The notes beneath the pieces were generated by a model. That model searched no databases. It worked only from the letters and a program-made list of their open reading frames with translations, and had not been told where the DNA came from. This document shows, in pieces, positions 15,705 through 26,520 of a stretch of DNA of 32,300 nt. The translations under genes were made by a program, and so were the position numbers. Source of the DNA: a virus. How positions within the stretch are numbered: position 1 is the first letter of the stretch; every line of letters begins with the position of its first letter. The stretch spans positions 1-32,300 of the IMG/VR virus record IMGVR_UViG_3300034104_005655; one strand, 5' to 3'.

Positions 15705-16543
15705 GGGACGGTCACCGGGTCGCGGGTGTAAATATCGATCTGCTCCAACCCAAGCTCCACCGAGCCGCCAGAAGCCCCGCCGTTCCAGCCGTACAGGATG
15801 ACGTAAACGGTGGCGCCGCTGAACAGGACGGCCTCTAAGCCGCTGTCAGGACCGCTGGCGTCGCCACCGATGTTGGCGACATAGGTTGGGGCCTCACTGT
15901 CGATGTCGCGCGGCGCTTCGGCAACGAGCAGCATCCGAGACGAGCCGACCACTCGGACGTCATCTTGGATGAGCACTGTTCCGTCGCGCCAATCGGTGTC
16001 GATGGATGCGGCCACGTCAGCGAAAACGGCGGCCTTGCGCGTCTGGAGCTTCACGGTGTTGCTGGTGGAACCGAGACGCTGCGACCCGCTGAACGACGCG
16101 GTCGTCTCGGTGCCGCCGGACGGCACCACGCCGATCACGGCACGCTGCGCGGTGGTCGTACCCATGTCGCAACGCCAGCGGAACGACACGAGCAGATCGT
16201 CGGACGTTGCGACGGAGGGCGAGACGGGGACGGCGACCCGCAGGCGGACGGCGGTGGAGCCGATGCCGGACGGGACATCAAGAACGAGGCCGCGCGTCGC
16301 ATCGGCGCCAGTGTTCGTGGAGGCGATGCTGCCGGTGGTGACTGCGGCGTTGACTGCGACGGTCCCGCCGCCCGAGAGGGTGACGGTCTTGTCGCCGACC
16401 GTGGCGAAAGTTTGCGGCGTGGCGCCGATGAAGGTCAGGCCGCCGATACGGGTCCACGCGCCGGGGATGTCGCCGCCCCCACCGCCACCGCCACCGCCCG
16501 AGTCGCCGGCCGGGTAGAGCGGCCAGACCACACAGCCCCCCAT
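15701..16543 (-). CDS. Putative virion surface protein with polyglycine linker, 280 aa
   Basis: A short N-terminal segment (MGGCVVWPLYPAGDS, residues 1-15) is joined by nine consecutive glycines (16-24) to a beta-rich body. This contains strands such as GGLTFIGATPQTFATVGDKT and LLVSFRWRCDMGTTTAQRAV, and ends in YVILYGWNGGASGGSVELGL. The build is like a small anchor plus a lectin- or jelly-roll-like decoration domain, which suggests a head fibre or capsid surface protein. Start ATG 16543 overlaps the upstream stop (TGATG). Function is inferred from architecture and position after the capsid genes. Confidence 0.65.
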   Translation of the reverse strand: MGGCVVWPLYPAGDSGGGGGGGGGDIPGAWTRIGGLTFIGATPQTFATVGDKTVTLSGGGTVAVNAAVTTGSIASTNTGADATRGLVLDVPSGIGSTAVRLRVAVPVSPSVATSDDLLVSFRWRCDMGTTTAQRAVIGVVPSGGTETTASFSGSQRLGSTSNTVKLQTRKAAVFADVAASIDTDWRDGTVLIQDDVRVVGSSRMLLVAEAPRDIDSEAPTYVANIGGDASGPDSGLEAVLFSGATVYVILYGWNGGASGGSVELGLEQIDIYTRDPVTVP

Positions 16544-23677: not shown

Positions 23678-24280
23678 TCACACTTTCCGCTCAGCGCGCA
23701 CAATGCGCTCAGCGACGGCCTTTGCCTCGGCGTTCGGCGGGGGCACCCATCGGGGCACCGTGCCTTGGGCGGACTGAGCGGCGGCGGGCGGCGGCGGGCG
23801 GGGCGCGTCGCCGAGCATGATGTCGAGGCCCGGCACCTGCTCGCAAGCCCAGCGGACGAAGGGCTCGACCGGGGCGCGGCCGGACAGCACGGCCTCAGCG
23901 CGCTCGTTGATCTCATCGTAGAAGGCGCGCCCGGCCCGCCTGGACTCGCGCCGCTCGGCGTCGCTGAGCTGGAAGGCGGGGGCTGCCAGCTTGATCCACC
24001 GCTCCCACAGCATGTCTGATGCGAGCTTCCCCCGCGGCCCCAGCCTCGCAGCCCGCAGCCGGCCGCGGAGCAAGGTGGCGTCAGGCCAGCGCCCGGCGTC
24101 CTCGGCGTCGTCGATGACCTCGGCGGCAACGTCGGGCGCCGCGCGCCAGAGCTCGACCACCGCCTCGGCGCCGGCCTTGGCCTCGCCGTCAGAAGGGGCA
24201 GACGTACCCATCGTCTTCGTCAGCCGCCGGTGAAGTACTCGCAGAGCTTCCCGCACTTCCGATTCCGTTCCAAAGCTCAT
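23678..24280 (-). CDS. Hypothetical protein in the position of a helicase loader, 200 aa
   Basis: A mostly helical protein (SEVREALRVLHRRLTKTMGT; AFYDEINERAEAVLSGRAPV) with a proline-rich linker (residues about 166-185) and a basic C-terminal helix (AEAKAVAERIVRAERKV). It directly follows the iteron-bearing initiator gene, as lambda P follows O, so a helicase-loading role is possible. There is no Walker ATPase motif, and no sequence match to P is recognised. ATG 24280 has GAGGAGG at good spacing and is preferred, though it overlaps the initiator gene by 92 bases; ATG 24211 is a shorter, weaker alternative. Confidence 0.7.
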   Translation of the reverse strand: MSFGTESEVREALRVLHRRLTKTMGTSAPSDGEAKAGAEAVVELWRAAPDVAAEVIDDAEDAGRWPDATLLRGRLRAARLGPRGKLASDMLWERWIKLAAPAFQLSDAERRESRRAGRAFYDEINERAEAVLSGRAPVEPFVRWACEQVPGLDIMLGDAPRPPPPAAAQSAQGTVPRWVPPPNAEAKAVAERIVRAERKV

Positions 24281-25358
24281 CGTCTTCCTCCTCGGAGTTG
24301 GGCACCTGCACACCGGCAGCCCGCATCCTCTCTCGCCAGGCCGGCGCGTCCGCCGAGCGCCCACCGCTCGCCAGCCACGCGGCCACCTCTTCCTGCTCGA
24401 TCGTCGTCAGGCCCGTCAACCCGGTCCACGTCCGCCGGGGCCCGTACTGCTCGGGGCGCGCCAGTAGCATGGCAAAGTCCGTGCAGCGGTCGCTCCCGCC
24501 GCGGTCCTCGCCCCGATGCCAAGCGGCGTCCGGGTGCCGCAGAAGCCACACCCATCCATCCTCGATGTCGCCAGCCGTGGTCTTCGCCAGCGCCTTGCGG
24601 AGCTTCGGCACCCATGCCTCGGCGCTCAGGCCGCGCACCGTCCGGCCGAGGCGCTGGTAGCGTTCGAGGCGCAGGCGTTCGAGGCGGGCGAAGAGCACGG
24701 CGGCGGCCTCGACTTCGCGGGAGGCTTTGGTCGGCTTCGTGGGCTTGGTCGTCACCGGCTCAGGCTCAGCCCCGAGGAGCGAGAGCTGGGCGGCGCCAGC
24801 CGCCGGGGGCTCGGCGCAGGCCGGGCCCGCCATGAGCTTAGGAGCGTTGTCTGAGGAGGGTTGGTGAGGAGGGTTGTCTGAGGAGGGTTCGGTGCCGAAC
24901 ACCGGCACCCCCCCCTGCCGAACATCGGCACCCCCTATGCCGAACACCGGCACCCCCCCCTGCCGATTACCGGCACCCTGCCGAACATCGGCACCCTGCC
25001 GATTACCGGCACCCCCCCTCCGGCTGTCGCGGGCCGGGGGCTCCCAGCCCGCCAAGCGGTCGAAGTCCAACCGGCACTTCATCGAGGTGTCGCCCCGCTC
25101 CACGGCCACAAGGATCCCCGCGGCGAGAAGCTCAGCCCGTGCGGCCTGCGCGGTGGAGCGCGAGCACGACGCCCAGGCGCTGAGCGTCTCCAGCCCCGGC
25201 CACGCTACGCCAGCATCCGGCGGGCGCTCGCTCGGCAGGTGGCTCATGTACGCGAGCAGGATGAGCTTTTGGTGGGCGCTGAGCGGTGACCTGCCGATGA
25301 GGTCCGCGGCTCGCCCACGGTTGAGCGGAGGCGAGGCCCCCGCTGGTGCGTCCGTCAT
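24189..25358 (-). CDS. Replication initiator, lambda O-like, with winged helix, 389 aa
   Basis: The N-terminal domain (residues about 24-107) contains PLSAHQKLILLAYMSHL, then GLETLSAWASCSRSTAQAAR and ELLAAGILVAVERGD. This is a helix-turn-helix of the kind used by phage replication initiators. The middle (116-171) is low-complexity: the DNA there is six dyad repeats, translated as GNRQG, DVRQG and VPVFG units, then two PSSDN units. The C-terminal part (about 195-330) is helical with tryptophans (DIEDGWVWLLRHPDAAWHRG) and ends DDGYVCPF. In lambda, O binds iterons lying within its own gene; the same is inferred here. ATG 25358 has AAGGAG seven bases upstream. Confidence 0.8.
   Translation of the reverse strand: MTDAPAGASPPLNRGRAADLIGRSPLSAHQKLILLAYMSHLPSERPPDAGVAWPGLETLSAWASCSRSTAQAARAELLAAGILVAVERGDTSMKCRLDFDRLAGWEPPARDSRRGGAGNRQGADVRQGAGNRQGGVPVFGIGGADVRQGGVPVFGTEPSSDNPPHQPSSDNAPKLMAGPACAEPPAAGAAQLSLLGAEPEPVTTKPTKPTKASREVEAAAVLFARLERLRLERYQRLGRTVRGLSAEAWVPKLRKALAKTTAGDIEDGWVWLLRHPDAAWHRGEDRGGSDRCTDFAMLLARPEQYGPRRTWTGLTGLTTIEQEEVAAWLASGGRSADAPAWRERMRAAGVQVPNSEEEDDELWNGIGSAGSSASTSPAADEDDGYVCPF
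24846..24889. repeat. 17-bp direct repeat beside the iterons
   Basis: GTTGTCTGAGGAGGGTT occurs at 24846-24862 and 24873-24889, with a partial GAGGAGGGTT match between them. It abuts the iteron array on the side downstream in gene direction, where lambda has its AT-rich melting region. It is strongly purine/pyrimidine-skewed and relatively poor in GC for this genome. It encodes the repeated PSSDN of the initiator. Confidence 0.75.
24893..25011. repeat. Six dyad-symmetric iterons inside the initiator gene, likely replication origin
   Basis: Six 15-base copies begin at 24893, 24916, 24938, 24961, 24979 and 24997. Copies 2 and 5 are TGCCGAACATCGGCA, with perfect six-base arms. Copies 1 and 3 are TGCCGAACACCGGCA. 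Copies 4 and 6 are TGCCGATTACCGGCA. Start-to-start distances are 23, 22, 23, 18 and 18 bases, with C-runs between some copies. Dyad iterons inside a helix-turn-helix initiator gene are the arrangement of lambdoid origins. Confidence 0.75.
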
Positions 25359-25679: not shown

Positions 25680-25892
25680 CTACAGCGCGACCGCTGAGGC
25701 CACTGCCCGCAGCACCAGGGCCTCGGCGTGCTCGGCGACGGCCCCGCGCTCGCCCCAGCGGGCCACGGCGGCGCGGCCCTCCGGGGTGCCAAGCCACGCG
25801 GCGGTCGCGTAGTCCCAGCAGAAGGTGGCGTCCTCGGGCCCGATGCGGCGGCCGAGGGCGGCGCAGCGGCGCGCGACTTCGGCGGCGCTCAT
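25680..25892 (-). CDS. Hypothetical protein, 70 aa
   Basis: The ATG at 25892 overlaps the stop of the Lar-like gene (ATGA). The sequence is helical and alanine-rich (SAAEVARRCAALGRRIGPED; RWGERGAVAEHAEALVLRAV), with a central aromatic segment (TFCWDYATAAWLG). No family is recognised. It is the third and last gene of the lipoprotein-led leftward cluster, followed by a 321-base gene-free region with promoters. Confidence 0.6.
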   Translation of the reverse strand: MSAAEVARRCAALGRRIGPEDATFCWDYATAAWLGTPEGRAAVARWGERGAVAEHAEALVLRAVASAVAL

Positions 25893-26230
25893 GCCGGGTC
25901 TCCCTCAAGGATGGGGTGGTGGGCGCCGCCCCGGATCAGCTTTGCCTCGCGGCGCAGCCCGCGGTGGTCGAGGAACGCGGCGATGGCGGCGCGCTCGGCG
26001 GAGACGGCTGCTGCGAGGCGCTCGATGCTGGCGAGTCCGATATCTCGGCGGCCCCACCGGCCAGCGAGGGCGGCCAGTGTCTCGTGGGGGATGCCATCCT
26101 CGGGCATGCCATCATGGCCGCTCATCACGATGCAGCCCGCATCGCACGTGATCCAGCCGGGACCGCTGGGATCGATGCAAAACGTAGCGGGGCCGCCACA
26201 AAACGGGCAGGGAGCTATGGCGGCGCTCAC
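25889..26230 (-). CDS. Lar-like zinc-binding protein, 113 aa, GTG start
   Basis: The N-terminus has CPFCGG (Cys8 and Cys11) and a second pair (Cys29 and Cys33), the metal-binding frame of Lar-type restriction alleviation proteins. The downstream WNxR motif is not clear. The C-terminal half is helical (LASIERLAAAVSAERAAIAA). The GTG at 26230 overlaps the lipoprotein stop as GTGA and is preferred to a longer start that would run through the lipoprotein gene. Lar proteins affect type I restriction in E. coli; here a host-interaction role is only inferred. Confidence 0.65.
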   Translation of the reverse strand: MSAAIAPCPFCGGPATFCIDPSGPGWITCDAGCIVMSGHDGMPEDGIPHETLAALAGRWGRRDIGLASIERLAAAVSAERAAIAAFLDHRGLRREAKLIRGGAHHPILEGDPA

Positions 26231-26520
26231 CGGAGCACCACGAGGCGCCAGTAGCCGGAGCCCTCCACGTAGACGGTGCCGCGGTCGTTGAAGAAGGCGG
26301 CGGGCTCGCACCGGCCGGCGGCGCTGTAGGGGTAGGCGCAGGCGTGGGCGCTGAGGATGGTGCCCGGCACCTCAACGCCGTCCACCTCGGCGGGCACCTC
26401 GACCACCTCGATTGAGGCGCCGCTGGCGGTGGTGGTGCCGTCGTCGGCGGCGGTGTCGCCGAGGGTTGAGCAGGCGGCGGCGAGGAGGGCGAGGAGGGCG
26501 GCCAGGTGAGGGCGGTGCAT
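26227..26520 (-). CDS. Predicted lipoprotein, 97 aa
   Basis: This is the first gene of the leftward arm. A short signal peptide (HRPHLAALLALLAAAC) with lipobox LAAAC predicts cleavage before Cys17 and lipid attachment. The mature part is acidic and threonine-rich, then strand-rich, with two further cysteines (Cys61 and Cys71) that could form a disulfide, and ends SGYWRLVVLR. Phage lipoproteins often act in superinfection exclusion or as lysogenic-conversion genes. ATG 26520 has a GGAGAG ribosome site and lies behind promoter P6. Confidence 0.75.
   Translation of the reverse strand: MHRPHLAALLALLAAACSTLGDTAADDGTTTASGASIEVVEVPAEVDGVEVPGTILSAHACAYPYSAAGRCEPAAFFNDRGTVYVEGSGYWRLVVLR

Follow-up and report, generated by a model that had tools for sequence, protein, structure and literature searches.

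A probable lambda-type replication origin with six dyad repeats inside an initiator-like gene of a high-G+C phage

Six tandem dyads inside an initiator-like gene of a phage are, with a probability of about 0.85, the initiator-binding iterons of an intragenic lambda-type origin, whose protein lies outside PF04492 (the lambda O family). The window, which is the whole stretch of DNA analysed, is 32.3 kb of phage DNA with 73% G+C. A lambda-like origin at this place was proposed in a preliminary description of the same DNA. We infer it, with support, from the O-like winged-helix gene, the array in the linker, whose codon position is that of the lambda O array, its reading in two frames, the weak duplex on its 3' side, a substitution-free array in a sister phage, and the joint exchange of N-terminal domain and array in a more distant relative. 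The preliminary description also spoke of the genome as a circle, which goes too far; the DNA is a virus contig whose completeness is not stated, and circularity is not established.

This reading would locate a probable replication origin in a phage lineage unrelated to that of lambda, for which the searches made found no relatives in 50,697 annotated phage records. It would also imply that the lambda design is found with a different family of DNA-binding domain and at 73% G+C. More generally, repeats in an initiator gene that are out of register with the reading frame may offer a route to phage origins from the genome alone.

The initiator-like gene and its dyad array

The gene and the two domains recognised in its product are as follows.

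24189..25358, minus strand: initiator-like gene, 389 aa, ATG start (open reading frame; HTH_36 and O-like PHROG matches; a relative with 93% identity)
25050..25319, minus strand: predicted winged-helix DNA-binding domain, about residues 14-103 (AlphaFold2 model)
24390..24732, minus strand: C-terminal domain, about residues 209-323 (conserved in the relative L060; helices, mostly modelled with low confidence)

Residues 26-83 match Pfam HTH_36 with E 3.4e-5 and 24.0 bits, just below the cut-off of 25. O-like initiator families of PHROG are matched weakly, the best being phrog_391 (replication initiation O-like; E 1.5e-4). In the AlphaFold2 model residues 14-103 form helices followed by a two-strand wing, with block pLDDT mostly 62-82 and one block at 45; the overall quality of the model is poor (mean pLDDT 46). 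These matches are weak, and together with the predicted winged helix they agree with the earlier placing of the dyads inside a helix-turn-helix initiator-like gene. A PDB fold search of the model returns nothing at E 0.001. All of its matches are weak (E 0.12 or worse), and many are winged-helix regulators, including TubR and proteins of MarR and ArsR type. The sequence search against solved structures gives no useful match, and no relatives of the initiator were found among annotated phages and bacterial genome contigs.

Residues 108-209 are predicted by AlphaFold2 to be a disordered linker. The dyads occupy codons 116-156 within this linker, so that the tandem array lies between the DNA-binding and the C-terminal parts of the gene.

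24893..24907, no strand: putative dyad iteron TGCCGAACACCGGCA
24916..24930, no strand: putative dyad iteron TGCCGAACATCGGCA
24938..24952, no strand: putative dyad iteron TGCCGAACACCGGCA
24961..24975, no strand: putative dyad iteron TGCCGATTACCGGCA
24979..24993, no strand: putative dyad iteron TGCCGAACATCGGCA
24997..25011, no strand: putative dyad iteron TGCCGATTACCGGCA

All six are exact copies of the 15-bp dyad TGCCG-N5-CGGCA, spanning 24893-25011 (119 bp), and their centres on the plus strand are, in order, AACAC, AACAT, AACAC, ATTAC, AACAT, and ATTAC. Start-to-start distances are 23, 22, 23, 18, and 18 (first start at 24893, last at 24997), as in the first account of six 15-base dyads at spacings of 18 or 22/23. 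Outside the array the 32.3-kb record has a single further TGCCGN5CGGCA copy, at 16111. By chance 0.18 dyads are expected per 32.3 kb, and a maximum of one falls within 119 bp in 60 first-order Markov simulations with the same dinucleotide composition as the window. Synonymous codon shuffles that preserve the peptide produce at most two tandem dyads (40 trials), which means that the array is not forced by the peptide.

In the direction of the gene the dyads start at nt 348, 366, 384, 407, 429, and 452. Translation gives GAGNRQ or GADVRQ from four of them, which share a frame, and VPVFG from the other two, which lie in a second frame; the translated units GNRQG, DVRQG, and VPVFG had been described before, and the peptides are as claimed. 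That one DNA unit is retained in two frames is a sign of selection on the DNA. It is hardly credible that a need for a recurring peptide has preserved the repeats: two short types do recur, GAGNRQ/GADVRQ and VPVFG, but the same DNA unit gives unrelated peptides in its two frames and the linker that holds them is predicted to be disordered. The array also contains a 41-nt repeat at 45-bp spacing with 93% identity, in addition to 18-bp units. It looks as if it were built of in-frame 18-bp units and of 45-bp units, the latter being a pair, which backs the earlier suggestion that copy types were duplicated pairwise. GC skew, which had been suggested as a check on the origin, does change sign near 25-26 kb, but it is confounded by gene orientation and is uninformative for the origin.

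Comparison with lambda and other intragenic origins

In lambda, the four iterons bound by O lie within the O gene itself, next to an AT-rich tract (PMC7466680, PMC3985674), and there are lambdoid relatives with six iterons and extra codons (PMC7466680). The lambda O gene with its ori comprises a PF04492 initiator, four dyad iterons of 18-19 bp, and the AT-rich tract. The annotated iterons of the lambda O gene occupy nt 349-433 and are read in three frames, and its weakest stretch is nt 436-475. The window has the same arrangement: dyads inside the initiator gene (from nt 348 here, nt 349 there), more than one reading frame (two here, three in lambda), weak duplex 3' of the array, and a following replication-region gene that overlaps the initiator downstream. 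The last two features are given here.

24830..24889, no strand: candidate DNA unwinding element, adjoining the array on the 3' side of the gene (nearest-neighbour energy)
23678..24280, minus strand: next gene, 200 aa, in the position of lambda P; overlaps the initiator gene by 92 nt

There are also clear differences from lambda. The N-terminal domain falls outside PF04492, the half-site reads TGCCG, the spacing mixes 18 with 22/23 bp, the DNA has 73% G+C, the unwinding candidate is much less AT-rich, and the downstream gene is without detectable relation to lambda P. With E values of up to 1 admitted, PF04492 gives no match to the window protein (lambda O, as positive control, matches at 5.7e-36). 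The 200-aa protein has no P-like match in sequence profiles (lambda P against phrog_109: 2.1e-98), and neither its sequence nor its fold gives any match above noise. With neither PF04492 nor a P-like neighbour, membership in the lambda O family fails.

The downstream gene was considered as a helicase loader, a role for which neither sequence nor fold searches give support. Among the genes tested there is no helicase, primase, or recognisable loader. The start codon of the 200-aa gene is kept in the sister phage, where its protein has 61% identity compared with 93% for the initiator. This fast-evolving protein has an all-helical model with pLDDT 83.

By profile, the nearest family of the window protein is that of the HTH_36-type initiators, and the likeness to lambda O is one of anatomy. 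The replication proteins of SfV, ST64B, and mEp460 have an HTH_36-like N-terminus, a family that the window protein matches just below the cut-off, and like it they have linker repeat arrays in more than one frame. They differ in iteron sequences and in their C-terminal domains, with about 22% full-length identity. Another intragenic origin is oriL of SPP1, where repeats and an unwinding element lie within the initiator gene 38 (PMC6316719). SPP1 differs in having low-GC DNA, a Bacillus host, and a helicase and loader of its own.

By nearest-neighbour energy the stretch 24830-24889 is the third least stable 60-mer in the window (top 0.03%), and at lengths of 50 and 60 it is the weakest part of the initiator gene. 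TGAGGAGGGTT occurs in it three times exactly on the plus strand (24852, 24865, and 24879). Within the same stretch, 24840-24889 has two 23-nt repeats, 96% identical and 27 bp apart. The least stable 40-60-mer of the gene also lies directly 3' of the array in lambda, in the viral contigs L007/L038, L014, and L016, and in L060. There are two exceptions. The weakest part of the SfV gene precedes the array on its 5' side, and that of the sister gene is at the 3' end of the gene and not beside the array, so that the unwinding candidate is weaker in the sister.

The dyads might instead be a partition-type site, or the operators by which the protein regulates its own gene. Binding to dyad operators is common among winged-helix proteins, and the weak fold matches include TubR and proteins of MarR and ArsR type. 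Such a role is very unlikely, however, as the array lies about 350 nt into the gene and not at a promoter, the profile matches of the protein are to replication initiators, and a weak-duplex stretch adjoins the array.

If the dyads are origin iterons, the winged-helix N-terminus, probably as a dimer, would bind each of them, and several bound dimers would form a complex on the 119 bp. The low-stability stretch 24830-24889 next to this complex would then open, and the C-terminal domain would recruit the replicative helicase, either directly or via a loader. A position that codes for the linker would suit such an array, since nearly any peptide may be tolerated there and the DNA would be free to be kept for binding. 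Binding, dimerisation, melting, and helicase recruitment are parts of the model that we infer.

Conservation and joint exchange of the array in related phages

The sister phage (IMG/VR 3300043119_000756; L005, L017) has an initiator with 93% identity. Its array has five dyads, that is, one 18-bp unit fewer, and is otherwise unchanged, with 0 substitutions. In an 11.4-kb alignment of the two phages 19% of sites differ. At a length of 150 nt, divergence in this alignment is lowest in the array region and, equally, in one other stretch; at 250 nt it is lowest in the array together with the weak stretch. Codons changed are 1/55 in array and weak stretch and 64/326 elsewhere (Fisher P 0.0003). Changes at fourfold sites are 0/28 versus 14/120, which is not significant alone (P 0.07). 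Whether the dyads persist in a homologue had been raised as a question with the first proposal; in the sister they do, the array being free of substitutions while flanking codons have changed.

A more distant relative, IMG/VR 3300042453_004843 (L060), was found by a search with the portal protein, which is 74% identical. Another relative from the portal search (L059) stops short of the initiator region. The initiator homologue of L060 is at L060:4837-6276. Its C-terminal part is 45% identical over 163 aligned columns (E 4e-34), and the alignment starts at residue 157 of the window protein. No similarity to the window protein was detected in the N-terminus of L060, and Pfam and PHROG searches with this homologue are without match. 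The linker (L060:5117-5331) has seventeen C[TG]CCAGC direct repeats with an exact 11-bp period, about one helical turn. They are grouped as nine and eight, 43 bp apart, and the period takes successive copies through all three frames. Directly after the repeats come the 40-60 bp of lowest duplex stability in the gene. Between L060 and the window, then, the N-terminus and the repeat array have both changed and the C-terminal part is kept. A homologue with conserved peptide and lost dyads, which the preliminary description had named as evidence against an origin, was looked for and not seen; L060 keeps neither.

A second case of joint exchange is found in L048 and L053. Their O genes have an identical 3' 367 nt and are without significant similarity upstream, where N-termini and linker repeats both differ. 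The DNA-binding domain and the iterons thus seem, from these comparisons, to travel together. Origin specificity here may well be a self-contained cassette, consisting of DNA-binding domain, linker iterons, and weak-duplex stretch, which is swapped whole while the helicase-recruiting C-terminal part and the neighbouring genes stay. Such a swap could change even the kind of iteron, as in L060: seventeen 11-bp direct repeats are found there, compared with 15-bp dyads at 18/22/23 bp in the window. This exchange is the most interesting part of the finding. With joint exchange in this lineage and in SfV-type phages, the winged helix with its linker iterons becomes testable as a transferable unit.

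The L060 array also bears on a role of the repeats in mRNA, where a row of small hairpins could tune translation or decay. By inspection of the sequence, every dyad has the potential for a hairpin with 5 bp in the stem and 5 nt in the loop. At the same position, however, L060 has a counterpart array of 11-bp direct repeats and not of dyads, and the iterons of lambda are protein-binding DNA sites (PMC7466680, PMC3985674). A function as hairpins is highly improbable.

Tandem arrays and neighbouring genes in a wider context

A gene-blind search of viral contigs for two tandem dyads returned 12 contigs, including the sister phage. In 3 of the 11 others (L007, L014, and L016) the array is in an O-like gene, after the N-terminal domain. 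The rest were set aside on reading their open reading frames: tandem dyads lie in structural, unidentified, or shadow frames in L006, L009, L010, L011, and L015, and outside long genes in L008, L012, and L013. A search with the L007 protein, unconditional on dyads, gave 16 related genes, and a motif scan found linker repeats in all of them (16/16). These repeats are of three types, TGCCG dyads, GTGCA-N4-TTCAC, and CCGTCAGANTCTG, with 2 to 4 copies per gene at the patterns used.

In bacteria, seventeen contigs have at least three tandem dyads of the same pattern, and most look like tandem palindromic repeats. No O-like initiator genes were recognised beside these 17 arrays by reading open reading frames. 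An array alone is therefore no proof of an origin, and it is the context that carries the argument.

These chromosomal arrays, several repeat tracts among them and one in a MutY-like frame (L031), are what would be expected if the dyads of the window were a tandem palindromic minisatellite that expanded in a tolerant linker and has no role in replication. The difference of one 18-bp unit between two close phages would fit this as well. The position of the array speaks against it, since it sits precisely in the interval from winged helix to C-terminal domain, an arrangement seen also in unrelated phages whose repeats are different. So does the sister array, which is without substitution though flanking codons changed, and so does L060, with a different array in the same place next to a different N-terminus. 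An expansion of this kind is unlikely, and an origin remains the preferred reading.

The genes near the initiator include those of an Erf-type annealing protein and a RusA-type resolvase; another (25889-26311, minus strand) codes for a Lar-type protein, whose match to Lar restriction alleviation is above the Pfam cut-off. A search for the host by means of the portal protein was unmatched in phages and in 396 + 398 genomes of two phyla.

The layouts of three bacterial arrays are as follows. Tannerella MAG contigs have seven (L027:5095-5247) and three (L032:4956-5016) tandem TGCCG dyads with 23-bp spacing near contig ends, where no long gene was identified. In a Tokpelaia genome, four tandem TGCCG dyads with 27-bp spacing lie within the MutY-like reading frame (L031:4955-5050).
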